Made by a program: the position numbers and the translations under genes
The notes under the pieces: model-generated
The model's input: the letters and a program-made list of their open reading frames with translations, nothing else
What the model was told of the DNA's origin: nothing
Databases searched by the model: none
NCBI GenBank assembly: GCA_030278955.1
Contig: JAOANR010000012.1
Coordinates: 1,453,858-1,517,857, forward strand
Source of the DNA: Hygrophila difformis
Taxonomy: Eukaryota; Streptophyta; Magnoliopsida; Lamiales; Acanthaceae
DNA length: 64,000 nt
Reading direction: 5' to 3'
Shown: one piece after another, positions 1 through 51,349 of the stretch
Numbering within the stretch: the first letter of the stretch is position 1
How the letters are laid out: each line of letters opens with the position of its first letter

Positions 1-1
1 C

Positions 2-1999
2 ATTGAAGTTGATCCAGCCAAAGTTTCCATCATTTCCAATCTCCCTCTTCCTAACTCGATCAAATCAGTTAGGAGCTTCTTAGGGCATGCCGGTTTTTAC
101 CGGCGATTCATTAAGGATTTCTCTAAAATTGCCAAGCCGCTCACTAATCTGCTTTGTAAAGAAAATCCTTTCTTAATAAACGAAGCGTGTGTCCAAGCCT
201 TTGACACGCTCAAGAAGATGTTGGTTTCTGCACCGATAGTGCAACCACCCGATTGGTCACTGCCTTTCGAGGTAATGTGCGATGCTAGTGGTCTCGCCGT
301 AGGTGCAGTTCTTGGACAACATAAGGAGGGGAGACACTGCGTAATTCATTACGCAAGTCATGCCCTGAATGAAGCCCAAGTTAACTACACCACAACGGAG
401 AAAGAGATGTATGCTGTAGTCTTTGCGTTTGACAAGTTCAGACAGTATCTGATAGGTACGAAGACCATAGTATACACCGATCATACAGCATTGAGATACT
501 TGTTTAGCAAACAAGATGCAAAACCTCGATTAATCAGGTGGGTACTTCTGTTGCAAGAATTTGACATCATAATAAAAGATAGGCGAGGTCGAGATAACGG
601 TGCTGCTGACCACTTATCTCGATTAGATAATGATAAAAAGGAAAAAGCCGTCAATGAAGATTTCCCGGACGAACAGTTGTTCGCGTTGCATCTGCATAAT
701 CAAGCTTGTCCATGGTTTTCCGACATCGCTAACTTCTTGGCATGCGGAATAACCCCCCAGTTTTCGAACTATCAGCAGAGGAATAAGTTCAAACGAGATG
801 TATTAAGTTACTTCTGGGAAGAACCTTATCTCTTCAAACACTGCCCTGATTTAATAATCAGGCGATGTGTGACTGAGCATGAAGCTTATCAAATTGTCAG
901 AAAATGCCATGAATCAGAATATGGAGGTCACCATGGTCCCGCTCGAACGGCCCACAAGGTCCTCGAATGTGGATTTTATTGGCCTCGCATCTATGAGGAT
1001 TGCAGGACATTTGTTAAGGGCTGTGACAGATGCCAAAGATTAGGAAACATTTCCAAGAGGGATGAGATGCCTCAAAAGGGGATTCTCACACTTGAGATCT
1101 TTGATGTATGGGGCATTGACTTCATGGGACCGTTTCCACCATCTGGTGGAAACTACTATATCTTGGTAGCTGTCGATTACGTATCCAAATGGGTCGAGGC
1201 TGTCGCATTACCGACCAATGATGGTAGCCAAGTCATCAAGTTCCTCAAGAACAACATTTTCAGTCGATTTGGCGTACCTAGGGTGGTGATATCTGATGGA
1301 GGAACACACTTTATTAATAAAGGTTTTGAAACTTTAATGAGTAAAAATGGGATCCTCCATAAGATAGGCACGCCTTACCATCCTCAGACTAGTGGTCAAG
1401 TCGAAGTATCCAATCGCGAAATCAAACACATACTCGAAGCCACTGTCGGGATAACCCGTAAGGATTGGGCACGTAAGCTCAATGATGCTCTATGGGCATA
1501 CCGCACAGCATATAAGACTCCCATCGGGATGTCTCCATATAGGCTGGTCTTCGGAAAAGCCTGTCATTTACCCGTAGAGCTAGAGCATAAAGCTTACTGG
1601 GCCGTTAAAACGCTTAACTTTGATCCGAAAGTTGCTCAGAGCAAACGTAAGTTGGACCTCAATGAAATTGAGGAAATACGAGCGCAAGCTTATGAAAGCT
1701 CTCGAATTTACAAGGAGCGGACCCAGAAGTTGCACGATCGCCGGATCAAACCTAAGTATTTTTATGTTGGTCAACATGTGTTATTGTTCAATACTAGGTT
1801 GAAGCTGTTCCCCGGAAAGCTCAAATCTAGATGGGAAGGACCACATGAAGTACTAGAGGTGTTCAAAAATGGAGCTGTCAGGATTCGAACTGGCAGGGGC
1901 GATATAGTGGTGAATGGACAACGATTAAAAGAGTACCTTGGACAGTTCGATCCGGAGAAAGAAAGCCAAGCAGTGGCAGACCCGGCTTACACTCAATAA
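2..1999 (+). CDS. pol: Partial gypsy pol: RT C-terminus, RNase H, integrase
   Basis: Open in one frame from base 2 to the stop at 1997-1999; the true start is off the left edge. The first 70 codons are the RT connection ([12 protein letters not shown]). RNase H follows: DASG near 280, TEKEMYAV near 400, TDHTALRYL near 480. The integrase zinc region (HHCC pattern) spans about 905-1040. The core has Asp at 1118, Asp at 1295 and Glu at 1403, which is D-35-E spacing, so the catalytic triad is intact. The tail carries [16 protein letters not shown], typical of Athila-type integrases. The polyprotein would act in virus-like particles to reverse-transcribe and integrate the element. No frameshift or stop is seen, so the copy looks young or preserved in this part. 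Confidence 0.9.
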
Positions 2000-2096: not shown

Positions 2097-2136
2097 ACAT
2101 TTAGAGTACTAAGACTCTAAATGTGAGGATGTTGAT
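2097..2136 (+). repeat. Hairpin + TGTGAGGATGTTGA module, copy 1
   Basis: An 11-bp perfect stem (ACATTTAGAGT at 2097-2107 and its complement at 2114-2124, 6-nt loop) runs directly into TGTGAGGATGTTGA. The same hairpin and tail occur, base for base, in the minus-strand element at 31995-32022. A pyrimidine-rich 3' splice-site-like sequence (ATCTTGCAG) follows about 50 bp downstream, then GGAACCACCAAAAAG, which is also conserved in the minus-strand element. Confidence 0.8.
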
Positions 2137-2480
2137 TTTTGGAGAAAATCTAATGCATTTCATTCATCTATCTTGCAGAAGTTTGGAACCACCAAAAAGA
2201 GGAGCAGACAAGAGTAGCATGGAAAACCAGGTTCTTGGTTGGATTAGTTCTATAAATCTGAGAAAATGTTTTCGGGACTTGAAGAAATTCAATACCCGAA
2301 ATAAAATTCACAGATAAAATGGAACTGACCCAACCTAAGCTTATGCAAGTGGATTATTTAATTTTCAGCCCAGTTGAATTTACTTGGACTAAATTTATTC
2401 AGCCCAAGTCAAATAAAATGGACGCAGGCCCAATATCACACTCGGGCCCAGTCCAAGAAAATTCGAAAATTTAAAATTCT

Positions 2481-2795
2481 TTGTCGCGGAAGGACCTTTG
2501 TCGCGATGTCATGCATCGCGACCAGGCCCTACTCCGCGACAAACCCCCTTTTCCTTCTTAACCCTTCCCCACATCTTGTCGCGATGCACCTTGTCGCGGA
2601 GCATGACTCCGCGACCAAGCCCTGCTCCGCGACATGACCTGCGTTGACCTTGTCTCCATACTGAACTTTGTCGCGGTAGCCTTGTCGCGGAGCATGACTC
2701 CGCGACCAACCTTCAACTCCGCGACCTCTCTAATGTCGCTATGCCTTGTCGCGGAACCTTGTTCCGCGACAAAGTCTCGGATTCCGCGACAAAAG
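2481..2795 (+). repeat. GTCGCGG dyad array upstream of the F-box gene
   Basis: Four 23-nt dyads at 2500-2522, 2593-2615, 2684-2706 and 2748-2770, plus single half-sites (GTCGCGGA or TCCGCGAC) between them. Arms differ between copies but keep pairing: GAG/CTC at 2593 and 2684, ATG/CAT at 2500, AAC/GTT at 2748. The array stops about 10 bp before a TATA box. The same motif family fills the LTRs of this and the related minus-strand element. Confidence 0.9.
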
Positions 2796-2801
2796 TTCAA
2801 G

Positions 2802-2809
2802 TATTTATA
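2802..2809 (+). promoter_or_regulatory. TATA box of the internal F-box gene
   Basis: TATTTATA, followed by a long C/T-rich leader (2811-2950) as in many plant promoters, and an ATG in good context (A at -3, G at +4) at 2959. It lies immediately after the dyad array and about 150 bp before the start codon. Confidence 0.6.
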
Positions 2810-2958
2810 CCCCCCCACCCCCTCCAGTTTCTTTTCACCTTCCTCCTGTCATTTCAACTTCTTTCAGTTTCTTCATCTTCTTTTCCCCCATTTTTCTCTC
2901 ATCCGAACGAACACCACGTGTTCTTCGCACCCTTATCACTCTTTTTCTAAGGGAAACT

Positions 2959-4750
2959 ATGGACCGATTTCATGGACTCCTCCCAAACCTTGGACCCGTG
3001 CCTAGACCTGAGCCAAGGAGGAGAGGGTAAACCCTGTTTTCGCCATGTTCATAGCACCCATTCGGACCCTTTATTTTGTTTTTTATTTTGTTGTGTTCTT
3101 GGTGTGGTGTGGTTAATGTGTGCATTTAACTTTAGATTTTTGGAAGTTTTCAAAGTGCTCTCGGTTATGAGCACCATTTTGAAACGCCTGAAACCCCATT
3201 TTGAAACTGGTAATGGTTTTAAGTTTTTGAAGTTTTAAAACTGGAAAGAACAAACTGATGAACATTTGGGTATTGTTTTGAATATCTTGATGTTGTTGGT
3301 TTGATTGATCCTGATGTGATGTGCACAGTGTTGAGTTGGTGTAATAAAAGAGGTAAGATCTCTTTGGGCACATTTGTCCCCATGTTAGAAATCTCATGGG
3401 AATAAATGTTTGTTTGTTTATGGAAACATAGTACAAACACCCAATGGGAAACTTCCACTTTTAATGAAAGCAACCTTTTAGAAAAAGACAAAAAGAGTTA
3501 TTTTTTTTAATGTTTGACTTGAGTCTTTTGTTCCCAATGGAACACTAGTGTGAGTAAGATAGCAGTATTTTTGTCACCCAACTGCTATCATTTCCAAAAT
3601 CAAAAAATGGGACCACTCACATCCCACCTTTGTTAAATAAAACAAGTCAACCATTTTAAAATTAAAAACAGTGTTTGCAAATTTTTGGATGCTTTAACTG
3701 TCCAAACAGTCCAAGCTATCCAGAAATAGCAGATCCGTTCCGCCACGTCTTCATTGCACATTCCAAAATTCGAGCATTCCATTTCCATCTATCCATCTCA
3801 TTCCACTTCCAACAAGTGTCTCGGACTTGTTTAATAAAACCGAAAACTTTTGGGCCCTATGGCCCATTAAAAAGATTTTAGGCCCAATGGCCAATTTCAT
3901 TTTATTTTATTTTGGGCTCTTTAGCCCATTTAAAACCAAATATTATTTACATATGCTTTAAAATTCAAGTCAGAAATTTAATAATCTCACATCTAGAGCA
4001 AAGCTCTAAATGTGAGGATGTTGGTTTCTGAACTTGAATAATTTCTGAATTTATATAAAAATTGGATTCATCACTTCTTATCTTTTCAGGGGTAATCCTC
4101 CCATTCCAGACCCTGCTCCAGAGGGAACCAAGTTGTTGGACTTGCCGGTCGAACTCCTTGGTGAAATTCTCTCCCGGATAGGAGAGGATGAAATCAAGGG
4201 GGTGTTTACTGCACAACGAGTATGCAAGAAGTTCAGAGATGCTGGAAACCTTGCCATCGTGTACAAGCGATGCGAGGTTATCACCTCCACGGTGAAGAGA
4301 TGGCAAGAAAGGATCCGTCGGCAGAAGGAGAGATTCCTGCGAATATGCACAGCTGCAGGAAACTTCAACCTTCAGCTCATTCCAGCACTCAGGGCATTTG
4401 CAGAGGGGAATGAGGAGCGTGCTTGTGAACTGCTACGCCCGGGACTTGAGGACAACCATAAGACATCAATCTTCACCCGCGGATTGATGCTTATGAGTAA
4501 GACAGACGAAAGCCAAGTTGAGCAGGGAATCAGAATGATCGACAGGATGGTGACAGATCGATCAGTTTTTCGGTATACGTCCCTCAACGTTCTCGCTTGG
4601 ATAACTGACAACCCAGACAACCCACAACTGTGGGCAGGCCAAGGAGTCAGAGTCTATTGCCCAGGATGGCATGCACCTCTGAGAAACCGCGATTGGTGCC
4701 TGCGTTGTGAGCTTTCCAGCTGTGTCCTCTGGCTCCGATACATGCCCTGA
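2959..4750 (+). CDS. F-box protein gene carried by the retrotransposon (two exons)
   Basis: Proposed exons are 2959-3026 and 4090-4750. The donor is AGG|GTAAAC and the acceptor is CTTTTCAG|GGG. Exon 1 leaves two bases of a codon and exon 2 supplies the third, giving 729 nt (242 residues plus stop) with no internal stop. Exon 2 alone has no early ATG, which supports the splice. Residues about 40-78 read as an F-box (LDLPVELLGEILSR, later VCKKFRD). The middle resembles the Sel1-like part of plant F-box proteins of the At2g35280 type. The C-terminus has Cys 213, 226, 229 and 234, possibly metal binding. F-box proteins bind SKP1 and choose targets for SCF ubiquitin ligases. It lies where Athila elements usually carry env. 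Capture from a host gene is inferred. Splicing and expression are not shown. Confidence 0.75.
3989..4026 (+). repeat. Hairpin + TGTGAGGATGTTG module, copy 2 (inside the F-box intron)
   Basis: Stem ACATCTAGAGC (3989-3999) with GCTCTAAATGT (4003-4013), one mismatch, followed by TGTGAGGATGTTGG. It lies 76 bp before the F-box exon-2 acceptor, the same arrangement as copy 1: hairpin, conserved tail, then a 3' splice site. Confidence 0.75.
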
Positions 4751-6411
4751 AGAAAGAAGGACGAATTTTAGTCCCACTTTACTCTGCTTTGTTTTAATTC
4801 CAGTCTAGTAGTAGTATTTGCAAGAGATTTCCTCCTTTTGTGTGTGCAGGTTTGTATTAACTGCACGAGAATCCCTTGCTTTGGTTGTATTTATTGCTTT
4901 CCTTAAATTGGAACTCAACTTTTGAGACCACTGAACAATTCTTTATTGCTTTCCTTTGAAAAGATGTCTGCACAGTCCGAGATGAATAAGTGACTGTCAG
5001 GCCAAAAATATGCTGTTGACATACTCAGTATGTCAGCAGTGCCTCTTTACTGCTTTCAATTAAATAACCAGCAAAAATATGCATAAACTTGCTCTAAATT
5101 CACGGGTTGAATTTAGGCTTATGATTAAATTTTCAAACTTTTAAATTGGGATAATATAATTGAAGACATGCATGAAATGAATTCCTGAGGTTTTGAGCTA
5201 TAAAAATTTAATGATGCGATCAGCTTATTGGGTAATAAATCTGCATGTTAGAGATTTCGATTGAATAAATTGTTAGAATTAAGCTTGGATTAAATTTGAG
5301 AATATTGTATGACATGAATTAACCCAACCTTGTGAGATTTGAGCCATGAGTCACTTTTACTCATTCATTTTCTTTGATGTGTGAATCATTTTGATTAAAG
5401 GAAACTAGAACTTGCTATTGTGACCGATTCAAGACCATGCCATATTCCCGAAATTGAGCATATGATCGAGGCACCTAGAAAACCCAAAATTTTTGGCCTT
5501 CGTTTGAAATCCAAACCCAAAAATATTTTCCCTTTAGGATTAACCAATTTGAGCCTATAAGCCTAATTTTTCTTTGAAGCCCTCTATATTATTCCTAGCC
5601 TTCTAAAAAGACCAAGAAATTCAAACCCAAGTGTGCAAGAATGAATTCTATCAAAAGCATTAAAATTATGATCATCAAAAAAAGTATTAATCGGTATTCC
5701 ATGAACCGATTCAAAAAAAAAAAAAAAAGTTGAATGTCATTCAACACAAATAAATTGCAAATGACAAGCAATTAGACAATAGTCTAATGTCATGCAAAAG
5801 AAAATCAAAAAGAGAGAAACATTGATGATCATAAATTTTAATTAAATATGCCAAGTTACGATAGAACAAATCTTTGCCACTTCTTAGCCCAATAATTTCC
5901 CTTTCCTACCTAATGTTACAACCGTATGCCCCGTTATAACCCTTAAATAAGACCTCGTGATCTCGATTTGAAGAAATGAGCCGGTGGCGAGTTGGTCTGA
6001 TTGCAAGCTTATGGGATAATTTAATTAAATTTGATTTTGAGCGTTCATGATTAAACCCCGATTGAGAGTGAGTGAATTTTCCGATTCTCTTACATGTGAG
6101 GCCTTATCTTATTACACATATTCGTGTCATGCCTTAATTCATATTTTTAATCTTTGCATCTTTCAAACATGATGTTCATGAAGGATTGATAATAATGTTT
6201 TATTTGTAGGCCCGATGTAGTGAGCAAGTATCATTTCATTAAACACTGCAATCAAGGGAATTTAACACTTGTAGTTTTTGATTGTCTCATCCCAATCTAA
6301 AAAGAATGATATTTTTGAAGCCACGAAAATGAATTGAATATGTAGAGTCCGTGTTCTTACGAACATTGACTCTGACTGCTCGGGGACGATCAGTATTAAA
6401 TGTGAGGATGT
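4751..6411 (+). other. Non-coding 3' region of the Athila-like element
   Basis: AT-rich with no credible reading frame. From about 5100 to 6400 it matches, in reverse complement, 29300-30640 of the minus-strand element, so it is shared 3' untranslated sequence. It ends with TATTAAATGTGAGGATGT directly before the LTR; this is the likely plus-strand primer region although it is a poor purine tract. A short hairpin (GAGTC...GACTC, about 6346-6373) lies just upstream. Confidence 0.75.
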
Positions 6412-6718
6412 TGATAATGGCCAAAAATGACCATTATTTTCAATCCATTTCCGTGTCTTAAACGGGCATTTGATCGCATTCCGGTCTTACATTAAGTAAG
6501 AAAGCAGTCGAATTGGACTGATTTATGCATAATTGTAAAAATAATAAGCTGGTGTGAAAAAGACATAAATATGTAATTTTATTACATATTTATGTTAGAA
6601 AAATCCAAAAACATGAAAAAAAAGAAAAGGAAACAAAAAGATGGGAAAAAGATAGAAAAGCCCACAAAAAGAATATTTTCGGCCCATCTGGCCCAATCCA
6701 GCAGGCCCAGGAAGACCT

Positions 6719-6960
6719 TTGTCGCGGAAGCCCTTGGCGCGATGCAGTGTTCCGCGACAAAGGCATGTTCCGCGACCAACTGGCCCCAAATGCAGAGGAG
6801 ACCAGCCAAGCCCCTGGCGCGATGACCTTTGTCGCGATGGCATGTTCCGCGACAAAGGCATGTTCCGCGACCAAGATGCACAAATAGAGACACAAGACCC
6901 AGTCGAGAAGCCTTGCCACATGCAGTGTGTTCCGCGACCAACTTGATGTTCCGAGACAAA
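6719..6960 (+). repeat. U3 dyad cluster upstream of the LTR TATA box
   Basis: Repeated half-sites of the GTCGCGGA/TCCGCGAC family, some arranged as imperfect inverted pairs (for example around 6719-6760 and 6831-6860). The last half-site is about 75 bp before the TATA box. TGGGC/GCCCA words between (6990-7020) resemble plant site-II promoter elements. Confidence 0.75.
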
Positions 6961-7031
6961 GCTGTGATGTGTGTGATGTCTTAAGACACAATGGGCTAGA
7001 ATCAAGGCCCATGGGCTTAGGGTTACACTTC

Positions 7032-7039
7032 TATAAATA
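7032..7039 (+). promoter_or_regulatory. LTR TATA box (Athila-like element)
   Basis: TATAAATA in the context CTTCTATAAATATGAGG, 620 bp into the LTR. The minus-strand relative has a TATA box in the same setting (27367-27377). Confidence 0.75.
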
Positions 7040-7689
7040 TGAGGTGTCTCCCATGAGCTTAGGGTTGGAAGGTTGGAATTTTGTTAGAAATTCTTGAAGG
7101 CAAGCAGTAGGAGTTCTCTCTTAGGTAGAGTAGTTTAGGTTTATTTTCATGTATTATTTAATTCTTGCCCTTAGTTTTAGCTTAGTTTAGTGTTTTACTG
7201 TTCACAGTGCTTAGATAGCCATTTTTACACTATGTTTTGGTTTCTAAACTCTTGTTTTAGGGTTTGTAATACCCAAATCATGGGTATTAACAACACCTCT
7301 TCAATAATATGGGAAAACATTCATCATTTGTGTCCCAAATCATGAAATGGGTCTCACACCCCATGGATTTATGCTTTCTTTTTCATTTTGGGGTCATTTG
7401 ACCCTCATTTTGTTATTTTTATGTTTACTGTTGGCATATTATGGATAATGTTGTGTGGATGTGTGATCAAACCCTAGATTAGGACTCATGCTTTATTTTA
7501 ATATTCTGCCCTTCCTTGTTATTTTTGTTTAAGCATGTTCTTCTTTATTTTGAATGTTTCTTGCTTATTTTTAGCTTAGAATAGCTTTTTGATCTGAAAT
7601 AGGGTGAGATCACGCTGTTTGCATGCCACTGTTCATTTCTGCTTTTTCTGACTTTTGTCCTGAACCACCTTGGGCGCCAACCGCCTTCT

Positions 7690-8215
7690 GGCGCGGAACC
7701 ACGTTCCGCGACAAAATGGCTGTTCCGCGACCAAGGTGTTTCAAGACACTTGTCTCCATATTTAAAACCCTTTGTCGCGGAATACCTTGTCGCGGAGCCA
7801 CGTTCCGCGACAAAACTGTCCATGCATAGCGACAAAGGAGCCAAATTCTTGCATTTTGTCTTCATGGCTTCTTGTCGCGGAATCATTTTGTCGCGGAGCC
7901 ACGTTCCGCGACAAAATCCCATTCCGAGACAGAAAAATTATGCCATGATCCTTGATCTTTGAACACCTTGTCGCGGAACACCTTGTCGCGGAACCACGTT
8001 CCGCGACAAAATTTCCATGCATAGCGACAAGGGTTCAAATGCCTTAGAATTTTCTGAAAACACTTCGTCGCGATGTCACCCTTGTCGCGGAACCACGTTC
8101 CGCGACAAAATCTTGCGTAGCGACAAAGAGGCGTTATGCTGCCAAAAATTCTAAAAACTTGTCGGGATGTCCATGTCGCGGATCTCGGTCCGCGACAAAA
8201 TTTATGATATCGCGA
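7690..8215 (+). repeat. Periodic dyad array, about 97-bp unit
   Basis: Dyad cores at 7690-7712, 7789-7811, 7890-7912, 7985-8007, 8084-8106 and 8175-8196, spaced 99, 101, 95, 99 and 91 bp. The usual core is a 10-bp stem GTCGCGGAAC, loop CAC, and the complementary arm. Each unit also has one half-site before the core and one after (TAGCGACAA), with an AT-rich spacer. Confidence 0.95.
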
Positions 8216-11120
8216 CAAGGGTTCCTCTCCCTCTATTTAGTTTCAAACAAATTTCATTCTCTCCCTATTTTATATTGCAACACTCACATCATAGCCCCAC
8301 GGGTTAGGATGTAACATTCTGGAATTGCAATATAGGGTGTTATGCTGCCCAAATTTTGATTCTCCATTTGCATCACTTAACTGATTGAACCCTTGACTCA
8401 TTAATGATTAAAGATTGAGATTAGCAATAATCAAACTTCAATAATCATCTTGACTAAAGGACCTTTGTTCAATTGCCATTAAAACATTCTTGTATAAACA
8501 AAATCCTGATGGCTTAAACAGATAATCTGGACTGTAATTAATTATGGTAGGAAGGATTATTTAAGACCATCAATTGTGGACTCAATCCACAACCTTGCAT
8601 GAGAAACCAATGTCTCTCATACAAGGGATCTTCTTTTATTTCTTATTTATTTTGTCTTTGTGTGTTGTGTGGAACCATTAGTAAAGAATACATCAGACTA
8701 ATGTTGGCGGGTATTCCCTCATGGATAACTAGCTCGTATTCTGGGTATTAGTTACTAATTGTTATTCTGCATGGTCTGGATGATTGTCAGTGGAAGCCTT
8801 GGCAGTTCGCCTATCCGGGGTTATAATAGCTGCTCGGCTGACTCCCATTCAGATACAGTTTTATTTTTATTATCTTAATTTCCAAACCTGAATCCCAATC
8901 CGTACTGGGAGTCAGTTGGCATCAGTCAATGCCAATTGATGATCATTATAGAAGGGAAGCATGTAGGTTTTTATCCGAATTCGCAGACAGTGGAGGCCCA
9001 ACTGGTGTTGACACCACCATTATAGGGTCTAAGCTGTTTAAATTCGCTCCAACCGAGTGATTGGGAAATTGGACAGTAGATGTTTACAGTCCACCTGATT
9101 ACTCTGCCATTACTTTGGTCCCTTGACCACTTCATTCTGTGTTTCACCTTCTGTCTAGACCCGCATCTATATTTTGGGTCAATTAATTTTACACTTCCAT
9201 ATATCTTTATGCATGATAATATTATATAATACTGTGGTCTGTACTTATTTTGGGATCCTTCCCTTGGACAATAGAAGTCTAGATCTTAAACAGATATTGC
9301 TTTATAAATTTCCAACAAAAACTTCTTTATAAAATCCGGATCTGAGTAAGGGATAAATTCTTCAGTTATGACTAATTCATATTCTATCAAGGGTTATATT
9401 TTGGGAATTAAGAAGCAGATTCAGCGATTAGGTCTCGCCTAGACTGAAAGGGTCTGTGTTTTAACTGAGAGTCTAGTACCTGACAGGGAATGATTTTCAA
9501 ATCCATTATTTTCCAAAATTGCTGGTTGATGGAAATGTAAGATTAAGTGCTACACCGAGATGGGGTCCACTTGGATTCAAATACAGTGTAGTAAATAATC
9601 TTAGAGAAACATCATCCAGGCCTTGATTATTTTCCAAGATAGGGTTGAGTTTTCTTTCAACCGCTATCTTCTTCTGCCAAAGCCTACTTTTGAGTCCTGA
9701 GTGAGTGCATCCGGAACGAACTAATTTATTAGTTCGTTTCATTAGTTTGTATCTCATAATCACCCGGAAGGAAGTGAACACATCAGTGGTCCACTGAGGG
9801 CCGGGAATTCTTGATCCATACTCCTTCATTCTGATGGGGAGCTGTCTTTTACTACCAGGGTCAGATTTTCAAAACCTCCGAGTGATAGGTTTTAAATGCT
9901 TTCTTTACCGCTTTCTTTTAATCGCTTTCATTAGAGGTCACTCGGTTGTATTGAGAGTTGTGTAACTGCTACTAGGATTGACAGTTAAGGGATAGTTTAG
10001 GGCTGAATTCAAATCTTTGGGTGTGACATGGGAGAATGATAGTGGTACTTGGCATTTCAATAAATGATGTGTCGGGTGTTGCTTTTCCACCACAGATGAA
10101 GTAACAAACCCAGGCCAGGGCAGTTATGAATCTGTGGTATCTTAGAATTTGCGGTCTTAAGAACATGTAAACTCATATTGCAAGTACCTGTCTGTTAAAG
10201 GGAAAGCCTTATTGAGAGCATGAGAATTAGCTATCTGAAAGAATTATCCCAAACAAAGATCTGCGTATGAAAATGGAAGTTTAACATTGCTGTATCTCAC
10301 TCTTGTCCAATTTTCATTCTTTCCTTCCTGTCCTTTCTGTCTACATTGTGACTCAACTTCACGGTTGGCACAATGCACCTTTTCCCTGCTTTCGTAGATA
10401 ATGTTTACCGCATTCCTAGAATAATTCTTATCCGCTTTCTAGAGTAGATTTATTTGCTTTGTAGATTAATTTAACTGCTTTCTAGATCTAATTTACATTC
10501 ATGTCAGTAGTTATTAATCACCTTTCAAACCTATTGAGCAATACGAATGGAAAATCTAGTAAAACGACGTGGGACCTGCTTCTATCGCACATCCTCCAGT
10601 GAACGATCCGGTCTTACTATAAATTACTGCAATTTTTGACACCGTGCGCTTTCGGGCCACAGTTTCTTAAACACGAGCAACAAAAACATGACTACTTATA
10701 AATGTATCCCTAATCACAACTCCGCTATCATAAATTGGTTTCATTAAATAAAATCTAAACCAGGACTATGATTTTTCGGAAAATACTCATGTAGTGAGAA
10801 CTTGCCAAAAGTTTCATGGCAGGAACTCTCATGGCAAGAATTGATGAGAAGTATCATGGCATACTTGCCGGGGATCCTCAGTGTGACAGGCTGAAGGTCA
10901 ACCTATCCCGGCTATGCCATGAGATTTGTCAACATTTCATGACAGGGAGGACCACAGCGCCATTTGAAATCAAAGCACCACACTTGAGTAATAAAAAGAC
11001 TAATAATCTTGATATATCCCTAAACCCTTTCCCGTGAATCATAACGCTTTTCATTTAATAAATCTAACCTGGTATAATTTTAGCAAAAGCTCGTGTGGAC
11101 GGAAATTGTCAAAAGTTTCA

Positions 11121-23384: not shown

Positions 23385-26153
23385 TGAAACTTTTGACAAA
23401 TTTCATTAACACGAGTATTTTTCAATAAAATATATCAGGATTGAATTTATTAAAATGAAAAGAATTATGATTCGCGGGAAAGGGGTTTAAGGATATATTA
23501 AGAGTGCCACTTTTTATTACTCAGGTGGGGTGCTTTTAATTTCAAATGGCGCTGCAGTCCTCTCATGTCATGAAACTTTTGACAAGTCTCATGGTACAAC
23601 CGGGATAGATTGACTTTCAGCCTGTCACACTGAAGGTCCCCGGCATATGTGCCATGATACTTCTCATGATTTCATGTCATGAGATTACCTACCATGAAAC
23701 TTTCGGCAGATTCCCACTACATGAGTATTTTCTGAAAAATCACATTTTTATTTACTCGTGCTAAGAAACTGTGCCCCCGAAAGCGCACGGAGTCAAAAAT
23801 TGCAGTATTTATAGTAAGTACCGGATCGTTCACTGGAGGATGTGCGATGGAAGCAGGGCCCACGCCGTTTACTAAGATTTTCCACTCGGTTACTCGATTC
23901 GAGTTTGTGATTGACTATCAACTACTTGACAGAATTTAAACTAGATTATGAAAGCAATTAAAATGAAGCAGATAAAATTATTCTATAAAGCGGATTAAAT
24001 TTAATCTAAGGAAGCAATAAAATTATTCTAGGAAAGCGGTTAAAATTATCTAAGAAAGCAGATTTAAATTATGACAGAAGGGACAGGAAGAAAAGAATAA
24101 AGATTGGACAAGATTCAGATGAAACATAGTTAAACTTCCATTTTATTACACAGATCTTAGCTTGGGATAATCCGTCAGTTAGCTAATTCTCATGCTCTCT
24201 ATACCATGTTCCCTTTAACAGACAGGTACTTACAGCAAGAGTTTACATGCTCTTAAGAAAAAAAATTCTAAGATACCACAGACGCATAACTACCCTTGCA
24301 ATGCATTGCTAAGGTATGTTAATTATCTGTGGTGGACAAGCAACACCTGACACATCATTAGTTGAAGTGTCAAGTACTGCTATCATTCCCCCATGTCACG
24401 CCCAAAGATTCTAATCAAGCCCTGAACTATCCCTTAACTATCAGTCCTAGTAGCAGTTACACAACTCTCAATACAACCGAGTGACCTCTAGAGAAAGTAG
24501 TTAAAAGAAAGCGGTAAAAGAAAGCGGTAAAGAAAGCATTTAAAATCCTATCACTCGGAGGTTTTTGAAAGTCTGACCCTGGTAGTAAAAGAAAGCCCCC
24601 AGTCAGAATGACCGGATGTGGATCAAGAATTCCCTATTCTCGGTGAACCGCTCGCAGTGTTCACTTCTCGTCGGGTGGTTATGAGATACAAACTAATGAA
24701 ACGAACTAATAAATTAGTTCGTTCCGGATGCACTCACTCAGGACTCAAAAATAGGCTTTGGCAGAAGAAGATAGCAGTTGAAAAAATACTCAACCCTACC
24801 TTAGAAAATATCCAAGGCCCGAATGTTGTTCCTCTAGTGTTATCTATCACACCTTGTCGGAATCCAAGTGGAATCTGACCCAGTGCAATATTTAATACAA
24901 GATTTCCAACAAACAGCAATTTTGGAAAATAATAAATCTGAAAATCATTCCCTATCAGGTACTAGACTCTCAATAAGAACACAGACCCTTTCAGTCTAGG
25001 CGAGACCTAATCGCTGACTCTGCTTCTAATTTCCCAAAATCAATCCCCAGTCGGATGTGAATTAGTCATAACTGTGGAATTTATCCCTTACTAAGATCCG
25101 GTTTTTATAAAGGAATTTTTGTTGGAAATTTATTATGAGACATCTGATTTAAATCATGACTTCTATGTCCAAGGGAAGGATCCCAAAATAATAATGACCA
25201 CAATATCTACATAATAATATCATGCATAAATTTATAAGGAAGTGTAAAATTAAATAACCCAAAATATAAGGTGGGTTTAGACAGAAGTTGACACACAGAG
25301 ATGGAATAGCCGGAGATGAGAAGAATTTATTGGCTAAAAAGATGGCAAAACGATTGGGTGGACTGCAAACATCTGCTGTCCAATTTCCCTCTCATTTGGA
25401 TGGAATGATTTTTAGACAGAAAGGAATTCCAAGTGACGGTGACCGCCGTCATTCAGCTCCCTTTTGTCTGTGAATAGAAGAAAAACCCACATATTTTCTT
25501 GTTGTAATAATTCTCAAATAATGTTGGTCGACATCATTTACTAATACTACAACTTGAATTCAGGTTTTGAAATTAAGATAAAGAGAATAAAACTGTATCC
25601 GGATAGGAGTCAGCTGAGCAGCTATTATAATCCCGGATGGACGAACCGCCAAGGCTTCCACCGGCCACTATCCAGACCAAGCAAAATAACATCTAATAAT
25701 TAATATACAGACCACGAGCTAGTTATCCGTGTGGGAATACCCGCCAACATTAATCTGGTATATTCCTTATTAGCTGTTTCACACAACACGGAAAAGACAA
25801 AATAAATAAATAAAAGAAAATATTTTTGGGTCATCTTGTATGAGAGACATTGGTTTCTCATGCAAGGATATGGAATTGATTCCATATTCACTCTTTATGT
25901 CTAAATAATCACTCATTCCATAATTAATTAATTACAGTCCGGATTATATACTTAGATCATTAGAGTTTAATCATTTGTAGAAAAATCTTTTAATGGAAAA
26001 TTGAACAAAGTTCTTTATATCAAATTAATCATGGGTTGAGATCATTGGATTTCAACCTCAAAATGTTAATATAAAGGTTCAATTAATTAATGGAGTGAGA
26101 TGAAGAATAAAAATTGGCAACAAGGTGCCACTTTGTCGTGGAATAGAATTTGT

Positions 26154-26809
26154 GTCGCGGACCATGGGTCCGCGACAAGGGTTTCGCGACAAAGGGGTGG
26201 GAAATAAGAGGAATTAATATTTTGAAAATTAGAGTTTGTTTTGTCGCTAAGCAGAAATTTTGTCGCGGAACATGGTTCCGCGACAAAGGGGGTATAGCGA
26301 CAAAGGGGTTGAAAATTGGTAAGGACATAATTTCTGGTCGCGGAACAAGGATTTTGTCGCGGTACGTGGTTCCGCGACAAAGATTCCGCGACAGAGTCCT
26401 CCCAGAGTAAAATTACAAGTATTTGGGTGCTTGGTCGCTAATCAAGGATTTTGTCGCGGAACGTGGTTCCGCGACAAGAGTTGCATCGCGACCAAGGGGT
26501 TTCAAAAATTAATGGCAAGGCATAATTTTCTGTCTCGGAATAAAATTTTGTCGCGAAACGTGGTTCCGCGACAAGGGTATTCCGCGACAAAAGCCATGCA
26601 GACAAAATGCAAGAATTTGGTCCTTTGTCGCTAAACATGGATTTTGTCGCGGAACGTGGTTCCGCGACAAAGGTTGCATCGCGACAAAGGGTTTTAAAGT
26701 TTATAAAAATTTTGGCAGCATAACCCCTAATATTGCATTACATGGGTGTGCGTTGTGATCCGTGGGATCACAACGGGAAAAATTACGTTGCAACCCGTGG
26801 GGTTGCAAC
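26154..26809 (-). repeat. Periodic dyad array (LTR copy A), 8 dyads
   Basis: Cores at 26154, 26262, 26356, 26453, 26550 and 26646 (23 nt each; spacings 108, 94, 97, 97, 96). Two further 23-nt dyads with different stems follow at 26752-26774 (stem GTTGTGATCC) and 26787-26809 (stem GTTGCAACCC). Six of the eight have a 10-bp stem and a GTG loop on the plus strand or a close variant; two have ATG. The copy at 26154 has ACC/GGT where others have AAC/GTT, so both arms changed together. Confidence 0.95.
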
Positions 26810-27366
26810 GTGATGCAATACAATATAGGAAATGCAATTTTAAAATAAATATGCACAAACATTTTAATAACATCCCTTTCTAGATTTATTATACTAGAAC
26901 TAAAAATAAAATAAAATAAAACAACATCCAAAATAAAAAGAAAAATAAAAGCAACTACTAAACTAAAAAGCAAGATAAAACACACTGGAACAAAAATCTG
27001 AAAAAGATAAACTAAGCTAATAAACCTATCAAGGGATAATATCAAATGATTATGCATTTATTAAAATAAGGAAAGCAATAAAACCTAACTACAATACCAA
27101 AACATGGTTCAACATACACCCATTAATTAAGTGTTTGAAACCCACAAACTACAAAATATAAAACTGGAAAAATAAAAGTGAACACTAGCTACACTAATTT
27201 ATTACAAAGCATAAATTAAAGCTAAGCTAAAATCTACATCTACATTGCATAAAAATAAACTAAACTACCTACTCTAACCTATTTTTGGAGAGCACAGTGG
27301 TGCCTCCAAAGAACAGTGAAAATAAACTATAGTGTAGCTAGGTTACTGTTCAAGGGGGTGTGAGGA

Positions 27367-27377
27367 TATATTTATAG
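27367..27377 (-). promoter_or_regulatory. TATA box of LTR copy A
   Basis: Minus strand CTATAAATATA. Upstream on the minus strand are TGGGCC words (about 27395-27415) and the U3 dyad cluster, the same order as in the LTR at 6412-11120. The twin in copy B is at 36140-36150. Confidence 0.75.
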
Positions 27378-27417
27378 ATGAGTAGGAAAGCCCTAGGCCC
27401 ATTAGAGGCCCACCTGG

Positions 27418-27835
27418 TCGCTAAACAATTGTTTTGTCGCGGAACAAATTGGCTAGGGACAAAACACTTTTTAGCTCCAAGATGGCGCCCAGGAGGGGCG
27501 GGAGCTCGAGGTCCGAGGGGAAGAAGACGAAAATCCATACTTGCGGGAGCAGAGGTCCCTGGAGCTTCCACTAGATTCAGGGGAATTTGAAAAAAGGGGG
27601 TGGGTCGCGTGAGAGCTGCATTTTTCTCTCACTGGCGCGGAGTAGGGTTGTCGCGGTAGGCTGTCTCTGTCGGGGAAGACTTTGTCGCGGTCGCGGTACA
27701 CTTTGTCGCGGAACATTGTTCCGCGACACAATTTTTGTGTCTTACTCCTCTCACAGTCGCGGAGCAATTTTCTGGGCGCGGAGCATTTTTTTGGTCGCGG
27801 AGCACTTGGTCGCGATGTACTACTCCGCGACAAAG
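27418..27835 (-). repeat. U3 dyad cluster (LTR copy A)
   Basis: Half-sites GTCGCGG and TCCGCGAC in several spacings, with one perfect 23-nt dyad at 27705-27727 (loop ATT) and an imperfect one near 27811-27833. It ends about 45 bp from the TATA box on the promoter side. Confidence 0.85.
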
Positions 27836-28149
27836 ATTTAATTTTCTCTTTCTCCTCTTTCTTTTCTCTTTCATTCATCCTCTTTCCTCCATTTCTTTCC
27901 TCCATTTTCGTTTCTTTCTTTCCCCAAATTTCTCTCTTCCAGTTTTCTTCTTCTTCTATTCTTTCATCTTCTTCGTGTTCTTCGTTCTTCTTCTCACAGA
28001 TTTAAATTTCTTCTCCATCCTTCTCCTCCTCCATTTTCTTTCCTCGTTCCATTTCTCTGTCTCTCTCGTTTCTTTTTCTTTGTTCGTCTTCCTTCTCCAT
28101 TTTCGTTTTCAGTTTTCCAATTTTTCTTGCTTCGTTTTTCTTCAATCGA

Positions 28150-28760
28150 GGGCTGCCGAGGCGCTGGGGTGACGGCCAGAGATGGAAGCGCCTCGTGGTG
28201 TTGGGGGAAGGGAGATACGGCGGAGGCAGGTGGTCGGAGTGGCGACTGGAGGTGATGAAGATGGGGGGCGGAGCAGCGGTTGCTCGGTGGCCGCTGGGGT
28301 GTTGGAGAAGGTAGGGGCTGCCGGAGATGGAGAGATGGTGGAGATGGGTTGCGATAGTGGTTGGGCTTGGAAAATGGAGGGGGATGGGTTGGCCGGATGT
28401 GGTGGCTGGATGTGGGCGAGGGAGGTGGAAATGGTGGTGTGGATGCGTTGGCGGTGGTTGAGGAGGCGGAAGGCGGCGGCCGGACGGAGATGGATGACTG
28501 TGGATGGAGGCGGCGGAGGTGTGGAGGGTTTGGTTTGATTTTGGGATTTTGTGGTGTTGGAAGGGTGGTGGCCGCCGGTGGCTGATGAGGATGGGATTGG
28601 TGGTGGTGAAATGGGCGGAAATGGGGGCTGTTTGGTGTTGGTCGGAGATGGTGAGGGTGGTCGGAAATGGGTGGCCGGCGGCGAGGCGGCGGCGGCGGCG
28701 CAGTGGCGGCGGCTAGGGTTAGGGTTAGGGTTGATGGTTGTAATGGTATTGGGCTTGTGG
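28150..28760. other. GC-rich block with telomere-like repeat in LTR copy A
   Basis: A C/T-rich tract (27840-28140) is followed by a GC-rich G-heavy block full of GGCGG and GGTGG words, ending in TAGGGTTAGGGTTAGGGTT near 28712-28731. On the plus strand the order C/T-rich leader then ATG (28182) looks like a gene start, but the frames are Gly/Arg/Trp-rich and not recognisable. It is absent from the LTR at 6412-11120, so it was gained in this lineage or lost in the other. The twin in copy B is at about 36923-37533. Confidence 0.6.
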
Positions 28761-30775
28761 GTGTTGGATTGGGCTAGAATTAATGGTTGGAGTGGGCTTT
28801 GATGTGGTTTGGGCTGATGGACTCAAACTCTTGGACTGGACCAAATTAAACTAAAACACCTGCAATTAATTAAACTGGATTAGTGGACCAATTTATTTAA
28901 TTAAGGCAGAAAATAGAAATAAAACGAAACATAGAAAAATAAATATATACATCAAAATATGAAATAAAATAATAATATAAGTATATTTATTTCCACTTGA
29001 TTATTTGGCTAGTGATTCGTTTAATGGACCCGTGTTCCACCGAACAAATATTACTAGACCATAATTATCAAATGTGGGATTTTTGATATTTTTATCATGT
29101 TTTTGGGTTTTTTAATATAAATTTAATAAAATAACAATATTTTTGTATTTTTCAATACCAGCTTATTATTTATACAAATTTGCATATATCTGTCAAATTC
29201 AACTGCTTTCTTATTTAAATAAGACCGGAATGCGATCAAATGTCCGTATTAGACACGGAAATAGATTGAAAATAATGGTCAATTTTGGCCATTATCAACA
29301 TCCTCACATTTAATACTGATCGTCCCCGAGCAGTCAGAGTCAATGTTTCTAAGAACACGGACTCTACATATTCAATTTATTTCCGTGGCTTCAAAAATTT
29401 CATTCTTTTTAGATTGGGATAAGACAATCAAAAACTACAAGTATTAAATTCCCTTGATTGCAGTGTTTAATAAAATGATACTTGCTCACTATATCGGGCC
29501 TACAAATCAGTCATTATTGATAATTCTTCATGAACATCATGTTTAGAAAAATTCATTGATTTAATTCTAGAATTAAAGTATGACATGAACATAATTAAAA
29601 GCAGAGCCACACATATAGTAGAAACGGAAATTTCACTCACTCTCAAAAAGGGGTTTTATCAATGAGCACTCATAATCAAATTTAATTAAATTATCCCATA
29701 AGCTTGCAATTGGACCAACTCGCCACCGGCTCATTTCTTCAAATCGAGATCATGAGGTCTTATTCAAGGGTTGTAACGGGGCATACGGTTGTAACATTTG
29801 GTAGGAAAGGGAAATTATTGGGCTAAGAAGTGGCAAGAATTAATATTATCATAACTTGGCATATTTAATTAAAATTCATGATCATCAATGTTTATTCTTC
29901 TCTTTTTTTTTTGTGGTTTTCTTTTTCTATTGCATGACATTAGACTATGTCTAATTTGCTTTGTCAATTGCAATTTATTTGTGTTGAATTGAATTGAATT
30001 CAACATTTTCTTCTTCTCTTTTTTTTTATTTTTTTTTTTTGATCGGATTTTTGAATACCGATTGAAATTTTTGTTGATGATCAAAAATTGGAATGCCTTG
30101 ATAAAATTCATTCTTGCCCACTTGGGTTTGAATTTTTTTTTTTTTTTTGGTCTTTTTGAAGGCTAGGAAGAATATAGAGGGTTTCGAAGAAAAATGAGGC
30201 TTAAGGCTCAAATTGGTTAATCCTAAAGGAAAAATATTTTTGGGTTTGGATTTCAAAAGAAGGCCAAAATTTGGGGTTCTAGGTGCCTCGATCATATGCC
30301 CGATTTTTGGGAATATGGCACGGTCTTGAATCGGTCCCAATCGCAAGTTCTAGTTTCCTTTAATCAAAATGATTTTCACACATCAAAGAAAAGAATGAGT
30401 AAAAATGACTCATGGCTCAAATCTCACATGGAATGGTTCATTCATGTCATACAATATTCTTAAATATAATCTTTGAAAATTTCTTACACTCTATTCAATT
30501 AAATTCTCAACATGAGGACTCATTACCCAACAAGATGATTATATCATTAAATTTTTATAGCTCAAAACCTCAAAAATTCATATCATGCATGTCTTCAATA
30601 TATTATCCCAATTTAAAAGTTTGAAAATTTAATCATAAACCAAAATCTCATATGCGAACTTAAACAGAGTTATGCATACTTTGCACTGGATTTAAATATA
30701 AAATAATAATAATAAAATTAAACAAAAAGAAAAGAAAAATAACACTTTTTTTTTAAAGTGAAGAATCAACATCCT

Positions 30776-30802
30776 CACATTTTGAGCCTTGCTCGAAATG
30801 TG
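30776..30802 (-). repeat. Hairpin + TGTGAGGATGTTGA module, LARD copy 3
   Basis: CACATTT.GAGC pairs with GCTC.AAATGTG around a 3-nt loop (one mismatch), followed on the minus strand by GAGGATGTTGATT. It is the most diverged of the three interior copies. Confidence 0.7.
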
Positions 30803-31285
30803 AGTAAATCAATTCCTACTTAAACAAATTATCAAAATCAAAATAAAATAAAAGAGGAGGGAGGGAGGGAGAAAATATTAACATAAAGGATAGGAAAAAT
30901 AATTCCGATAGCCTTTTTCGTCAAACCAATTAAATGTTCAACGATTTTGGCTGTGTGTGATCGTTTGGTTCGTCGAACAAGGCGATTGTTCGATGCCCAA
31001 TACTTAAGAAAAATTCTGATTTTCATCAAAATTGTTCAATCACATTTTAAAATTTAATCTACCATATTTACTTGCATAAATTTGGTCGGATTAATTCTGT
31101 TCTTATAAAAGTTATTCCGGATTTTAAATTGCTTTAAATTCCAAGAATACTTTCAAGTAATCACAGAATCGATCCAACCGGGAACCTGTTTTGCAGCTTT
31201 AATTTTCTTTTTGGTGGTTCCACAAATTCCTGCAAAGTAAACACAGAAGAAGTTATCGGGTTTTCTCAAAAATATCAACATCCTC

Positions 31286-31313
31286 ACATTTAGAGTATTA
31301 GTACTCTAAATGT
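31286..31313 (-). repeat. Hairpin + TGTGAGGATGTTGA module, LARD copy 2
   Basis: ACATTTAGAGT stem with 6-nt loop and perfect complement; minus-strand continuation GAGGATGTTGATA, then ACTTTGCAG about 50 bp on. Confidence 0.8.
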
Positions 31314-31528
31314 GATTCAATTGACTAACACCCAAATTATTTAATAATATGCACAAGAGATATAAATACATATAAATATATATATATATATGATTTTGAC
31401 TTGCAGAAAATTAGGTTGGATCAATTCTGTGCTTGTGAAAATTATTCCGGATTTTATATTTCTTTAAATTCCGGATATAATCTTTGGTCAATTACAGAAC
31501 TAATCCAACCGGGAACCTCTTTAGATGC

Positions 31529-31735
31529 TCAGTCGGGACAGGGGCGACGGAAAGTGAGATGATGGCCGTGGCTTGTCCGATGGTGGTGAGCACTTGGTAG
31601 TCCGAAGATCTGCTGCTCCATTTGTTGTTTCACCAGTGATGAGGGTTTCCCCAGCGCAGTGGTGGTGTTGAGGTGGATGAGCGATGGAGCAGCGGTTGAG
31701 CTTCGTGGTCCGGATGTGGTGGAGATGACAAACAC
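31529..31735 (-). other. Small ORF, 68 codons, unknown
   Basis: An ORF downstream of the first acceptor-like site in the LARD interior. The peptide is Ser/Thr/His-rich (contains KQQMEQQIFGLPSAHHHR) and is not recognised. It occupies GC-richer DNA than its surroundings and lies where the related element has module-1 sequence, so it could be a captured exon fragment. It might equally be chance. Confidence 0.3.
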
Positions 31736-31774
31736 GTGAGTCTCACGTGTTGTGCAATTTACAATTGCGAATTA

Positions 31775-31897
31775 GTGTAGCTCCACTGCTACACTTCTCC
31801 CTTTTTCTTTGATTTTTCGTTTAATTATCCTAGATTTTGCAATTGGCGAGGTGTAATTAAACGAAAAATCAAAGTAGTGTAGCCCCAATGCTACACT
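31775..31897. repeat. Nested palindrome
   Basis: Outer parts are two small palindromes, AGTGTAGC-(6 nt)-GCTACACT types, at about 31775-31796 and 31874-31897. Between them a perfect 21-bp inverted repeat (31807-31827 with 31854-31874, containing TTTTTCGTTTAATTA) is separated by 26 bp. The whole 120 bp can fold as one branched hairpin. It may be a small foldback insertion. Confidence 0.8.
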
Positions 31898-31994
31898 TCC
31901 ACATTTAACTCCGTACACCAATTTCGGTGGCTCCATGATTCCTGCAAGACAAAATACCCAATTGGTTAGGTTTTCCCCTCAAATCAACATCCTC

Positions 31995-32022
31995 ACATTT
32001 AGAGTCTTAGTACTCTAAATGT
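31995..32022 (-). repeat. Hairpin + TGTGAGGATGTTGA module, LARD copy 1
   Basis: Identical over its 28-nt hairpin to the copy at 2097-2124, including the loop, and followed on the minus strand by the same GAGGATGTTGATT. GTCTTGCAG follows about 50 bp on. This identity stands out because the sequences around it are clearly diverged between the two elements. Confidence 0.85.
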
Positions 32023-32132
32023 TTAATTGATTTGAGGGTACTTCTCTGTTCTGAAATAAATACACTAAACTAACACTAAACTAACTATGAGTAATCAGGA
32101 GTGTAATTCTCTTAATAAACGACGCTGCATCC

Positions 32133-32150
32133 TCCCCGGCAACGGCGCCA
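32133..32150 (-). other. Primer binding site, tRNA-Asp type
   Basis: Minus-strand TGGCGCCGTTGCCGGGGA, directly abutting the LTR end at 32151. This is the sequence used by Athila/Calypso-type elements (complement of the tRNA-Asp 3' end). It fixes the orientation and shows that the left flank of copy B is the inner side of the 5' LTR. Confidence 0.9.
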
Positions 32151-51082: not shown

Positions 51083-51349
51083 TAATATTTAACATTTCGG
51101 GTATCTGTTTGCCGGAAGATGAATGATAGTTCTGGTTCACCACCTTTTAAAATTTTAACTAGGCTCTTGCCCTTATACCTTATACCTCAGGTAAAATAAA
51201 ATACACTACTTCCCTTCCATTTTTCCCATTTCATTTTTTTAATTATGGAATATAATTTTGTAGTCATGTTATTATTATTAATTTACTACCTTGAATCAGA
51301 ATTCAGATCTGAATCTACCAATTCAGAGCTGAGCTCAAACTCAAATGCT

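Follow-up and report, generated by a model that had tools for sequence, protein, structure and literature searches.

The genome of the plant Hygrophila difformis carries a two-exon gene for a protein with an F-box and a TPR_27 domain inside a complete, young, Athila-like long terminal repeat (LTR) retrotransposon. We analyzed this gene in a 64,000-nucleotide stretch of contig JAOANR010000012.1 (positions 1,453,858 to 1,517,857 of the forward strand), called the window below, whose own numbering is used throughout. The gene, located between pol and the 3′ LTR, belongs to the element family and is under purifying selection there. We consider it probable from these sequence patterns that the family carries an accessory gene whose product, made from a spliced mRNA, acts as an adaptor of SKP1-cullin-F-box (SCF) ubiquitin ligases.

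Structure and recurrence of the F-box gene

The gene model is as follows, with conservation given for 68 copies examined in detail besides the window.

2959..3026 (+): exon 1, with the start codon, 22 codons and 2 nt; 68 nt long in 68 of 68 copies
3027..4089 (+): intron of 1063 nt; GT and AG retained in 68 of 68 copies
4090..4750 (+): exon 2, with the F-box, TPR_27, a cysteine-bearing C-terminus and the stop codon

Joined in phase, the two exons form a 729-nt frame of 242 amino acids with no inner stops. The ATG at 2959 is the first of two between the TATA-like box (near 2803) and the donor. Because exon 2 has no in-frame ATG upstream of the F-box, exon 1 is required for an ATG start. The donor GT (3027-3028) is moderate; scored with a plant matrix, it ranks among the top 3.2% of plus-strand GTs in the window. 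The acceptor, whose CAG ends at 4089, is strong, with only 0.35% of 3668 AG sites being equally pyrimidine-rich and CAG. Thus every part of the gene described in a first-pass annotation of the window (the ATG, the donor, the intron, the strong acceptor and the in-phase frame) is present.

A frame of this length arose in 1 of 5000 simulated sequences, and the codon score of exon 2, trained on the window's two pol frames, was reached neither by any of 2000 windows taken between 40 and 50 kb nor by any of 2000 composition-matched sequences. Together with the 150 of 150 scored genomic places described below, these results rule out a chance frame. Pfam recognizes the F-box (E 9.3e-05, 22.6 bits; cut-off 20.5) and, C-terminal to it, TPR_27 (E 1.8e-07, 31.2 bits; cut-off 27), and a scan at E 1 returned only TPR_27, F-box and F-box-like. 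The F-box also scores above the cut-off in another copy, L053 (23.2 bits against 20.5). The protein has no transmembrane segment (best 19-residue hydropathy mean 1.05), which rules out an env-like identity.

Exon 2 occurs at 150 or more places in the host genome, which amounts to 915 Mb in 246 contigs. A search with the exon-2 protein gave 6337 first-look candidates, and each of the 150 places scored, including the window's own, aligns over no fewer than 218 of the 219 residues, with 95-100% identity. Exon 2 is free of stops in 145 of these and has one stop in the other 5. Because this protein-chosen list is biased to good matches, a second sample was picked using intron sequence only (40 of 40 scored places, again including the window's own, from 2727 candidates). 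The 68 copies examined in detail comprise 29 that were protein-chosen and 39 that were intron-chosen. The start codon is retained in 67 of them, and the spliced frame is intact in 61 (29 of 29 protein-chosen, 32 of 39 intron-chosen); exon 2 by itself is intact in 33 of the 39 intron-chosen copies.

The gene also travels with pol. Two protein-chosen copies examined upstream have pol at 98.9-99.2%. Among 40 places chosen by pol (from 2774 candidates), 15, the window among them, have a listed F-box place 2.09-2.18 kb downstream, as counted by hand against the best 150 F-box places only. The first-pass annotation had named copies lacking the exon, or holding it randomly broken, as grounds for abandoning its reading. 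What we found is exon 2 at 150 of 150 scored places, with splice sites and exon 1 length retained in the 68 copies examined in detail, and a chance insertion of the F-box exon is thereby ruled out. That annotation had also remarked on an intron that persists in an element replicating through RNA. The intron does outlive replication: the LTRs are near-identical, the splice sites are kept in 68 of 68 copies, and no exact exon junction (up to 2 mismatches) was found in the 915 Mb by a search made without a positive control.

Selection and probable recombination among the copies

The ratio of nonsynonymous to synonymous substitution rates (dN/dS) was estimated for 63 sequences, after dropping 6 of 69 with a broken exon 2, a step that reduces dN/dS somewhat. 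The sequences fall into group A (n = 30, the window and the 29 protein-chosen copies) and groups B (n = 18) and C (n = 15), both intron-chosen. Mean dN/dS is 0.12, 0.16 and 0.18 within A, B and C, respectively, and 0.17 between A and B, 0.26 between B and C and 0.26 between A and C, with dS of 0.44-0.50 for the last two comparisons. In a neutral simulation run with the intron's substitution spectrum, the B-C distance gave a dN/dS of 0.78 (1-99% range 0.42-1.43), and 89% of simulated lineages with 53 substitutions acquired a stop. With 12 substitutions per lineage the value was 0.95 (0.22-3.34) and with 18 it was 0.82 (0.31-2.29). Because single close pairs are this noisy, the between-group values carry the argument. 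For the window against copy L054, the Fisher test gives p 7e-11.

A dN/dS below 1 across copies, which the first-pass annotation had proposed as a check, is therefore observed (0.12-0.26 against 0.78-0.95 for neutral sequence). The intact copies and ratios far under the neutral simulation lead us to conclude that the element family keeps the F-box gene. It could be argued that the gene is a passenger, a transduced fragment of a host gene that was amplified by hitch-hiking and is of no use to the element, and parts of two sources note that such captures are often reported in plants (PMC7264820, PMC3726574). However, dN/dS values of 0.16-0.26 over dS of up to 0.5, together with the stops in most simulated lineages, largely refute this explanation, and we regard it as extremely improbable.

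Constraint differs along the protein. Between B and C, the F-box has a ratio of nonsynonymous to synonymous differences per site (pN/pS) of 0.16, TPR_27 one of 0.21, the C-terminus 0.39 and the linker 0.58; between A and C, the values in the same order are 0.27, 0.20, 0.41 and 0.47. The F-box and TPR_27 are thus under tighter constraint than the C-terminus, which has the highest pS in the B-C comparison (0.60).

The two samples of copies differ in another respect. Intron-chosen copies have distances of 1-6% in the intron and mostly 4.5-6.5% or 15-18% in exon 2, and protein-chosen copies have 4-8% in the intron and 0.3-4% in exon 2, a mismatch seen in L051-L089 against L014-L042. One copy, L065, resembles a B/C recombinant by eye. 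Because the intron and exon 2 distances disagree and the C-terminus has the highest pS, the pattern indicates that the copies are probably mosaics produced by recombination between copies.

The Athila-like element and its putative regulatory regions

The complete element is about 20 kb long (C4:1445022-1464977). Its parts within the window, other than the gene and the regions discussed further below, are as follows.

1..1999 (+): 3′ part of gag-pol (end of reverse transcriptase, RNase H and integrase); the frame is open leftwards, and the left flank (L011, 6024-10000) has the same frame
5111..6411 (+): 3′ internal region, 84% common to a minus-strand element of the window; ends in the terminal polypurine tract (PPT) AAATGTGAGGATGT
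6412..11120 (+): 3′ LTR (TGATAATGG...TTTCA); over 4708 bp, 7 differences separate it from the 5′ LTR
11121..11125 (+): 5-bp target site duplication GAGCC, right-hand copy, matched on the left side

The 5′ LTR was located in the left flank (4708 aligned bases, 7 differences from the 3′ LTR), and the continuity of gag-pol across the window edge follows from the coordinates. The element therefore has two LTRs with TG..CA ends, a target site duplication, a primer binding site (PBS), a PPT and an open gag-pol. At a substitution rate of 1.3e-8 per site and year, its age is roughly 60,000 years. The PBS, TGGCGCCGTTGCCGGGGA, directly adjoins the 5′ LTR and may fit tRNA-Asp. A tRNA-Asp PBS placed 5 bp further on is described for Calypso and Diaspora in part of PMC1142308.

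Several features of pol point to an Athila-like placement of the element. The second, archaeal-type RNase H (RVT_3) that marks the Tat lineage, according to sections of PMC6317226, was not seen in the 593-aa pol part of the element, nor in L001, a complete gag-pol frame that we likewise call Athila-like; the neighboring Tat-type pol does show RVT_3. The order is reverse transcriptase, RNase H and integrase without the archaeal-type domain, as in Athila, and the RNase H-integrase part is 58% identical to that of L001. L001 and the near-identical L002 come from assemblies filed as Solirubrobacter and Geminicoccus, both CPCC strains, and their presence there is most likely due to plant contamination.

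The element further resembles the Ty3/gypsy elements Athila, Calypso and Cyclops in having an extra open reading frame (ORF) between pol and the 3′ LTR, the usual position at which the first-pass annotation had placed the gene, and in a PBS that adjoins the LTR. It differs from them in its 4.7-kb LTRs and in carrying an F-box/TPR gene with an intron and a promoter-like region. No env-like ORF, transmembrane segment or ATHILA ORF-1 domain was found by hydropathy of the F-box protein and Pfam at E 1. Their absence does not exclude Athila membership, because ATHILA ORF-1 is present in 16% of Athila elements (a figure from a section of PMC6317226) and Diaspora is described as lacking env (in a portion of PMC1142308). 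The suggestion that the F-box gene replaced env fared less well. No env-like ORF is present here, but an ancestor with env was not seen.

Upstream of the gene and within its intron are the following features.

2427..2800 (+): promoter-like region with two GGCCCA motifs and a dyad array (GTCGCGGA..TCCGCGAC)
2800..2815 (+): TATA-like box, 99.1% mean identity over 68 copies
2816..2958 (+): C/T-rich leader, 92.9% mean identity over 68 copies
2099..2137 (+): internal hairpin unit 1, with an 11-bp stem followed by GAGGATGTTGAT, which is like a PPT/LTR junction; an acceptor-like CAG ends at 2178
3990..4025 (+): internal hairpin unit 2, within the intron, 64-99 nt upstream of the acceptor
2099-2137, 3990-4025 and 6397-6415 (+), and near 31994, 31285, 30776 and 29305 (-): sites of AAATGTGAGGATGTTG

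The dyad array, TATA-like box and C/T-rich leader that the earlier annotation had reported ahead of the ATG were all located. Dyads and GGCCCA motifs of the same type occur in the element's own LTR, 5′ of the LTR TATA. Downstream of the TATA-like box, a 26-nt leader block with CACGTG (2904-2929) is identical in 68 of 68 copies. Apart from this block and an intronic one of 14 nt (3399-3412), no run of at least 14 nt between 2700 and 4110 is shared unchanged by the 68 copies. Compared with the window, the donor hexamer has a mean identity of 99.5%, the hairpin/PPT motif 99.3% and the acceptor stretch 98.5%, whereas the intron body has 93-96%.

Two other origins of this region were considered. 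A nested host gene with its own promoter is unlikely, given that the dyads and GGCCCA motifs are of the LTR type and that the 3′ part of the intron carries a hairpin unit of the element. The stretch 2131-3030 was also compared with both LTRs as a possible displaced LTR and rejected, as only the dyads (2481-2800) clearly beat shuffled scores against either one. The leader and intron are at or near the shuffled level; the leader scored highest (38, where shuffled sequences reached 34) with the reverse strand of the other LTR, in a match that is C/T-rich.

The motif AAATGTGAGGATGTTG has seven copies in the window, three in the F-box element and four in the minus-strand element, always in the orientation of the element. 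In each element, the last copy is the PPT where the LTR begins (TGATAATGG), and every one of the five internal copies follows an 11-14-bp hairpin of -12.6 to -17.4 kcal/mol; the value of -12.6 was reached by 22 of 2282 tiled, overlapping 34-nt windows, hairpin units included. An acceptor-like CAG, in one case the F-box acceptor itself, follows four of the five internal units. In L001, there are two PPT-like tracts, one after pol and one 2.7 kb further on. From these arrangements we infer that the hairpin units may be internal copies of the PPT/LTR junction that serve as, or adjoin, 3′ splice sites.

This arrangement raises the question of where transcription of the gene begins. Perhaps the gene is selected, as we propose, yet expressed from the 5′ LTR by env-like splicing to 4089, so that the internal TATA region is no promoter. 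The recurrence of hairpin units with acceptor-like sites downstream of pol would suit such a route, as would the stronger donor-like site at 3353 inside the intron. However, the TATA-like box and the CACGTG block are among the best-kept non-coding parts, and dyads and GGCCCA motifs like these also precede the LTR's own TATA. We consider expression from the 5′ LTR somewhat unlikely.

Possible roles of the product and its relatives

If the family does carry a selected SCF adaptor gene, its mRNA would be spliced, starting either at the LTR-type internal promoter or from the LTR by splicing, and unspliced genomic RNA would serve as the template for reverse transcription. The F-box would be expected from its domain to bind SKP1, and the TPR part and variable C-terminus might bind a host protein. 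The SCF ligase would then remove the bound protein, to the benefit of the element. Silencing components are the obvious candidate targets, and by analogy with P0 of poleroviruses, we infer that a host silencing factor may be the target. Such a target would imply active counter-defense by a retrotransposon instead of passive escape.

Two other uses of the F-box should be weighed against this proposal. The contact with SKP1 might stabilize the protein itself or serve Gag or particle handling, with the real activity residing in the TPR part and C-terminus. A precedent is given in part of PMC6593998, where binding of SKP1 by P0 of Brassica yellows virus stabilizes P0 and is not directly needed for suppression. 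The A-C comparison, in which the F-box ratio (0.27) exceeds that of TPR_27 (0.20), is compatible with this explanation, whereas in the B-C comparison the F-box (0.16) is tighter than both TPR_27 (0.21) and the C-terminus (0.39). On balance it is unlikely. Alternatively, the product might act as a decoy, sequestering SKP1 or a substrate with no transfer of ubiquitin. Its small size would fit this role, as would the F-box of the single scanned group-C copy, which is under the cut-off. However, the TPR part is constrained too (pN/pS 0.20-0.21), and a decoy is highly unlikely.

A number of observations weigh against the proposal that the family carries a selected, spliced SCF adaptor gene. With regard to splicing, the donor-like site at 3353 is stronger than the one used in our model, although joining from 3353 is not in frame. 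Conservation of the splice sites is by itself weak evidence because the 68 copies all retain 15 of the 60 further GTs and 15 of the 40 further AGs in the intron as well. The exact-junction search showed no intronless copy in the genome and therefore no genomic trace of splicing. With regard to the protein, the F-box of the group-C copy that was scanned (L054) has 18.8 bits, under the Pfam cut-off of 20.5, and a single-sequence structure prediction was uninformative (predicted local distance difference test score of 39.8). The A-C ratio for the F-box is not lower than that for TPR_27, and the linker between the two domains is loosely constrained (0.47-0.58). With regard to distribution, 25 of the 40 pol-chosen places have no F-box place among the best 150 listed, and an F-box is lacking in the distant Athila-like elements L001 and L002 and in the minus-strand element of the window. 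No homologue was accepted outside the host genome among 334 + 155 candidates from a large protein database that presumably holds little plant sequence.

Other searches for relatives were similarly limited in yield. A collection of viral contigs, also presumed to hold little plant sequence, gave no match to the F-box protein, and a search of solved structures gave one (E 0.23), to a synthetic fusion. The first-pass annotation had envisaged capture from a host gene. No donor was found, and the nearest relatives (33-37% identical) sit in a second repeat family. The one divergent place among those found with TPR_27 in the search described next, at C10:34089231 (L093), gave no tblastn matches to the window protein at E 1.

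The second family emerged from a genome search with TPR_27, in which most of 150 scored places (5039 candidates) have a 260-residue open frame with 50-55 bits, compared with 31 for the window. Three places that were fetched (L090-L092) are 87-93% identical to each other and are repeat-borne, not single-copy genes. At one place viewed over 8.5 kb (C11:18054300-18062800; L097 63-756, L090 3-2540), there are four tandem F-box genes. Gene 1 (in L097) is split between frames, with the F-box above the cut-off (21.5 bits) and TPR_27 below (15.0), and thus at least this gene is broken in the copy examined. Gene 2 (L090 3-686) has an F-box below the cut-off (17.3 bits). Gene 3 (852-1442) is shorter than in L091, with 26.3 bits for the F-box and 26.6 for TPR_27 (cut-off 27), and gene 4 (1761-2540) has both domains above the cut-off. 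Genes 2-4 share 33-37% identity with the window protein, and genes 3 and 4 are preceded by acceptor-like sites, as judged by eye. After the four genes come two hairpin units (AAATGTGAGTATGGTGAT or -GAC, with a hairpin as in the window units; unit motif AAATGTGAGTATGG/TGAT) and then long frames, two of which were scanned and gave no Pfam matches. No gag-pol was recognized in the 8.5-kb stretch. The second family is likely an LTR element.

It is possible, though this is a tentative suggestion, that one lineage of Athila-like retroelements has accumulated and diversified F-box accessory genes (one here, four in the second family), probably each with its own acceptor and with C-termini swapped between subfamilies by recombination. 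If so, these genes would be a retroelement counterpart of viral accessory genes, a shifting repertoire of SCF adaptors directed at host restriction or silencing proteins and spread by way of a modular 3′ region with repeated hairpin/PPT units at its borders.

Many plant LTR elements are known to carry extra ORFs, mostly without assigned function; these are reviewed in PMC7264820. What appears to be novel is an F-box/TPR gene as such an accessory ORF. An F-box is not named in sections 12 and 17 of PMC9289625, a study that found 15 extra domains to be frequent among the LTR elements of 121 angiosperm genomes, nor does the term occur in the main text of PMC11963269, PMC6317226 and PMC3726574. In the titles and opening lines of abstracts listed by searches of largely open-access literature, we found no earlier report of an F-box gene in an Athila element. 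Given clear domains, at least 150 full-length places and selection, the role of genes located between pol and the 3′ LTR is testable here by ordinary assays.

Three known systems offer partial parallels. Orchid Ty3/gypsy elements carry an ORF for an AlkB-type N6-methyladenosine demethylase with enzyme activity shown in vitro, as sections of PMC9289625 describe. There, too, a host-like domain is fixed in an LTR family, perhaps against host control, but the domain is a different one, and the F-box gene contains an intron. Grande gene23 is likewise an accessory gene located in the 3′ internal region, and it has its own promoter, a feature that is predicted for the F-box gene. According to a portion of PMC7264820, gene23 is an additional ORF in antisense orientation without clear relatives, whereas the F-box gene is in sense orientation and appears to be spliced.

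The third parallel is P0, the F-box-like silencing suppressor of poleroviruses and thus a parasite-encoded F-box protein that could tap the host SCF. P0 is viral, and the proposed likeness lies in the F-box. We know of no TPR part in P0. Parts of PMC6593998 and PMC9035678 cover P0 and the host protein FBW2, respectively. Plant proteins that combine an F-box with TPR_27 (Pfam PF23310) have the same two domains as the window protein, but the places of the best family fetched here are repeat-borne. Some annotated 'F-box genes' in such genomes may be element genes.

The minus-strand element (23385-38070) has 5.9-kb LTRs (23385-29297 and 32151-38070) that are 99.6% identical and a 2.85-kb internal region in which no gag-pol was seen. 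No target site duplication was seen either, and the element is probably non-autonomous or rearranged. One of its hairpin units contains an inserted stretch with a long inverted repeat (31528-31906, minus strand) that looks cargo-like by eye.

To the right, the F-box element abuts, with its target duplication, a Tat-type neighbor (11121-16400 and 17819-19926) consisting of a Tat-type pol and then two antisense plant mobile domain frames, one match being above the cut-off and one below. Traces of host genes lie further along the window. One is a carboxylesterase-like frame at 51200-52454, with a frame change near 51690. The other lies at 53784-54317, where the minus strand weakly matches nucleoporin Ndc1, with 29.1 bits against a cut-off of 29.8.

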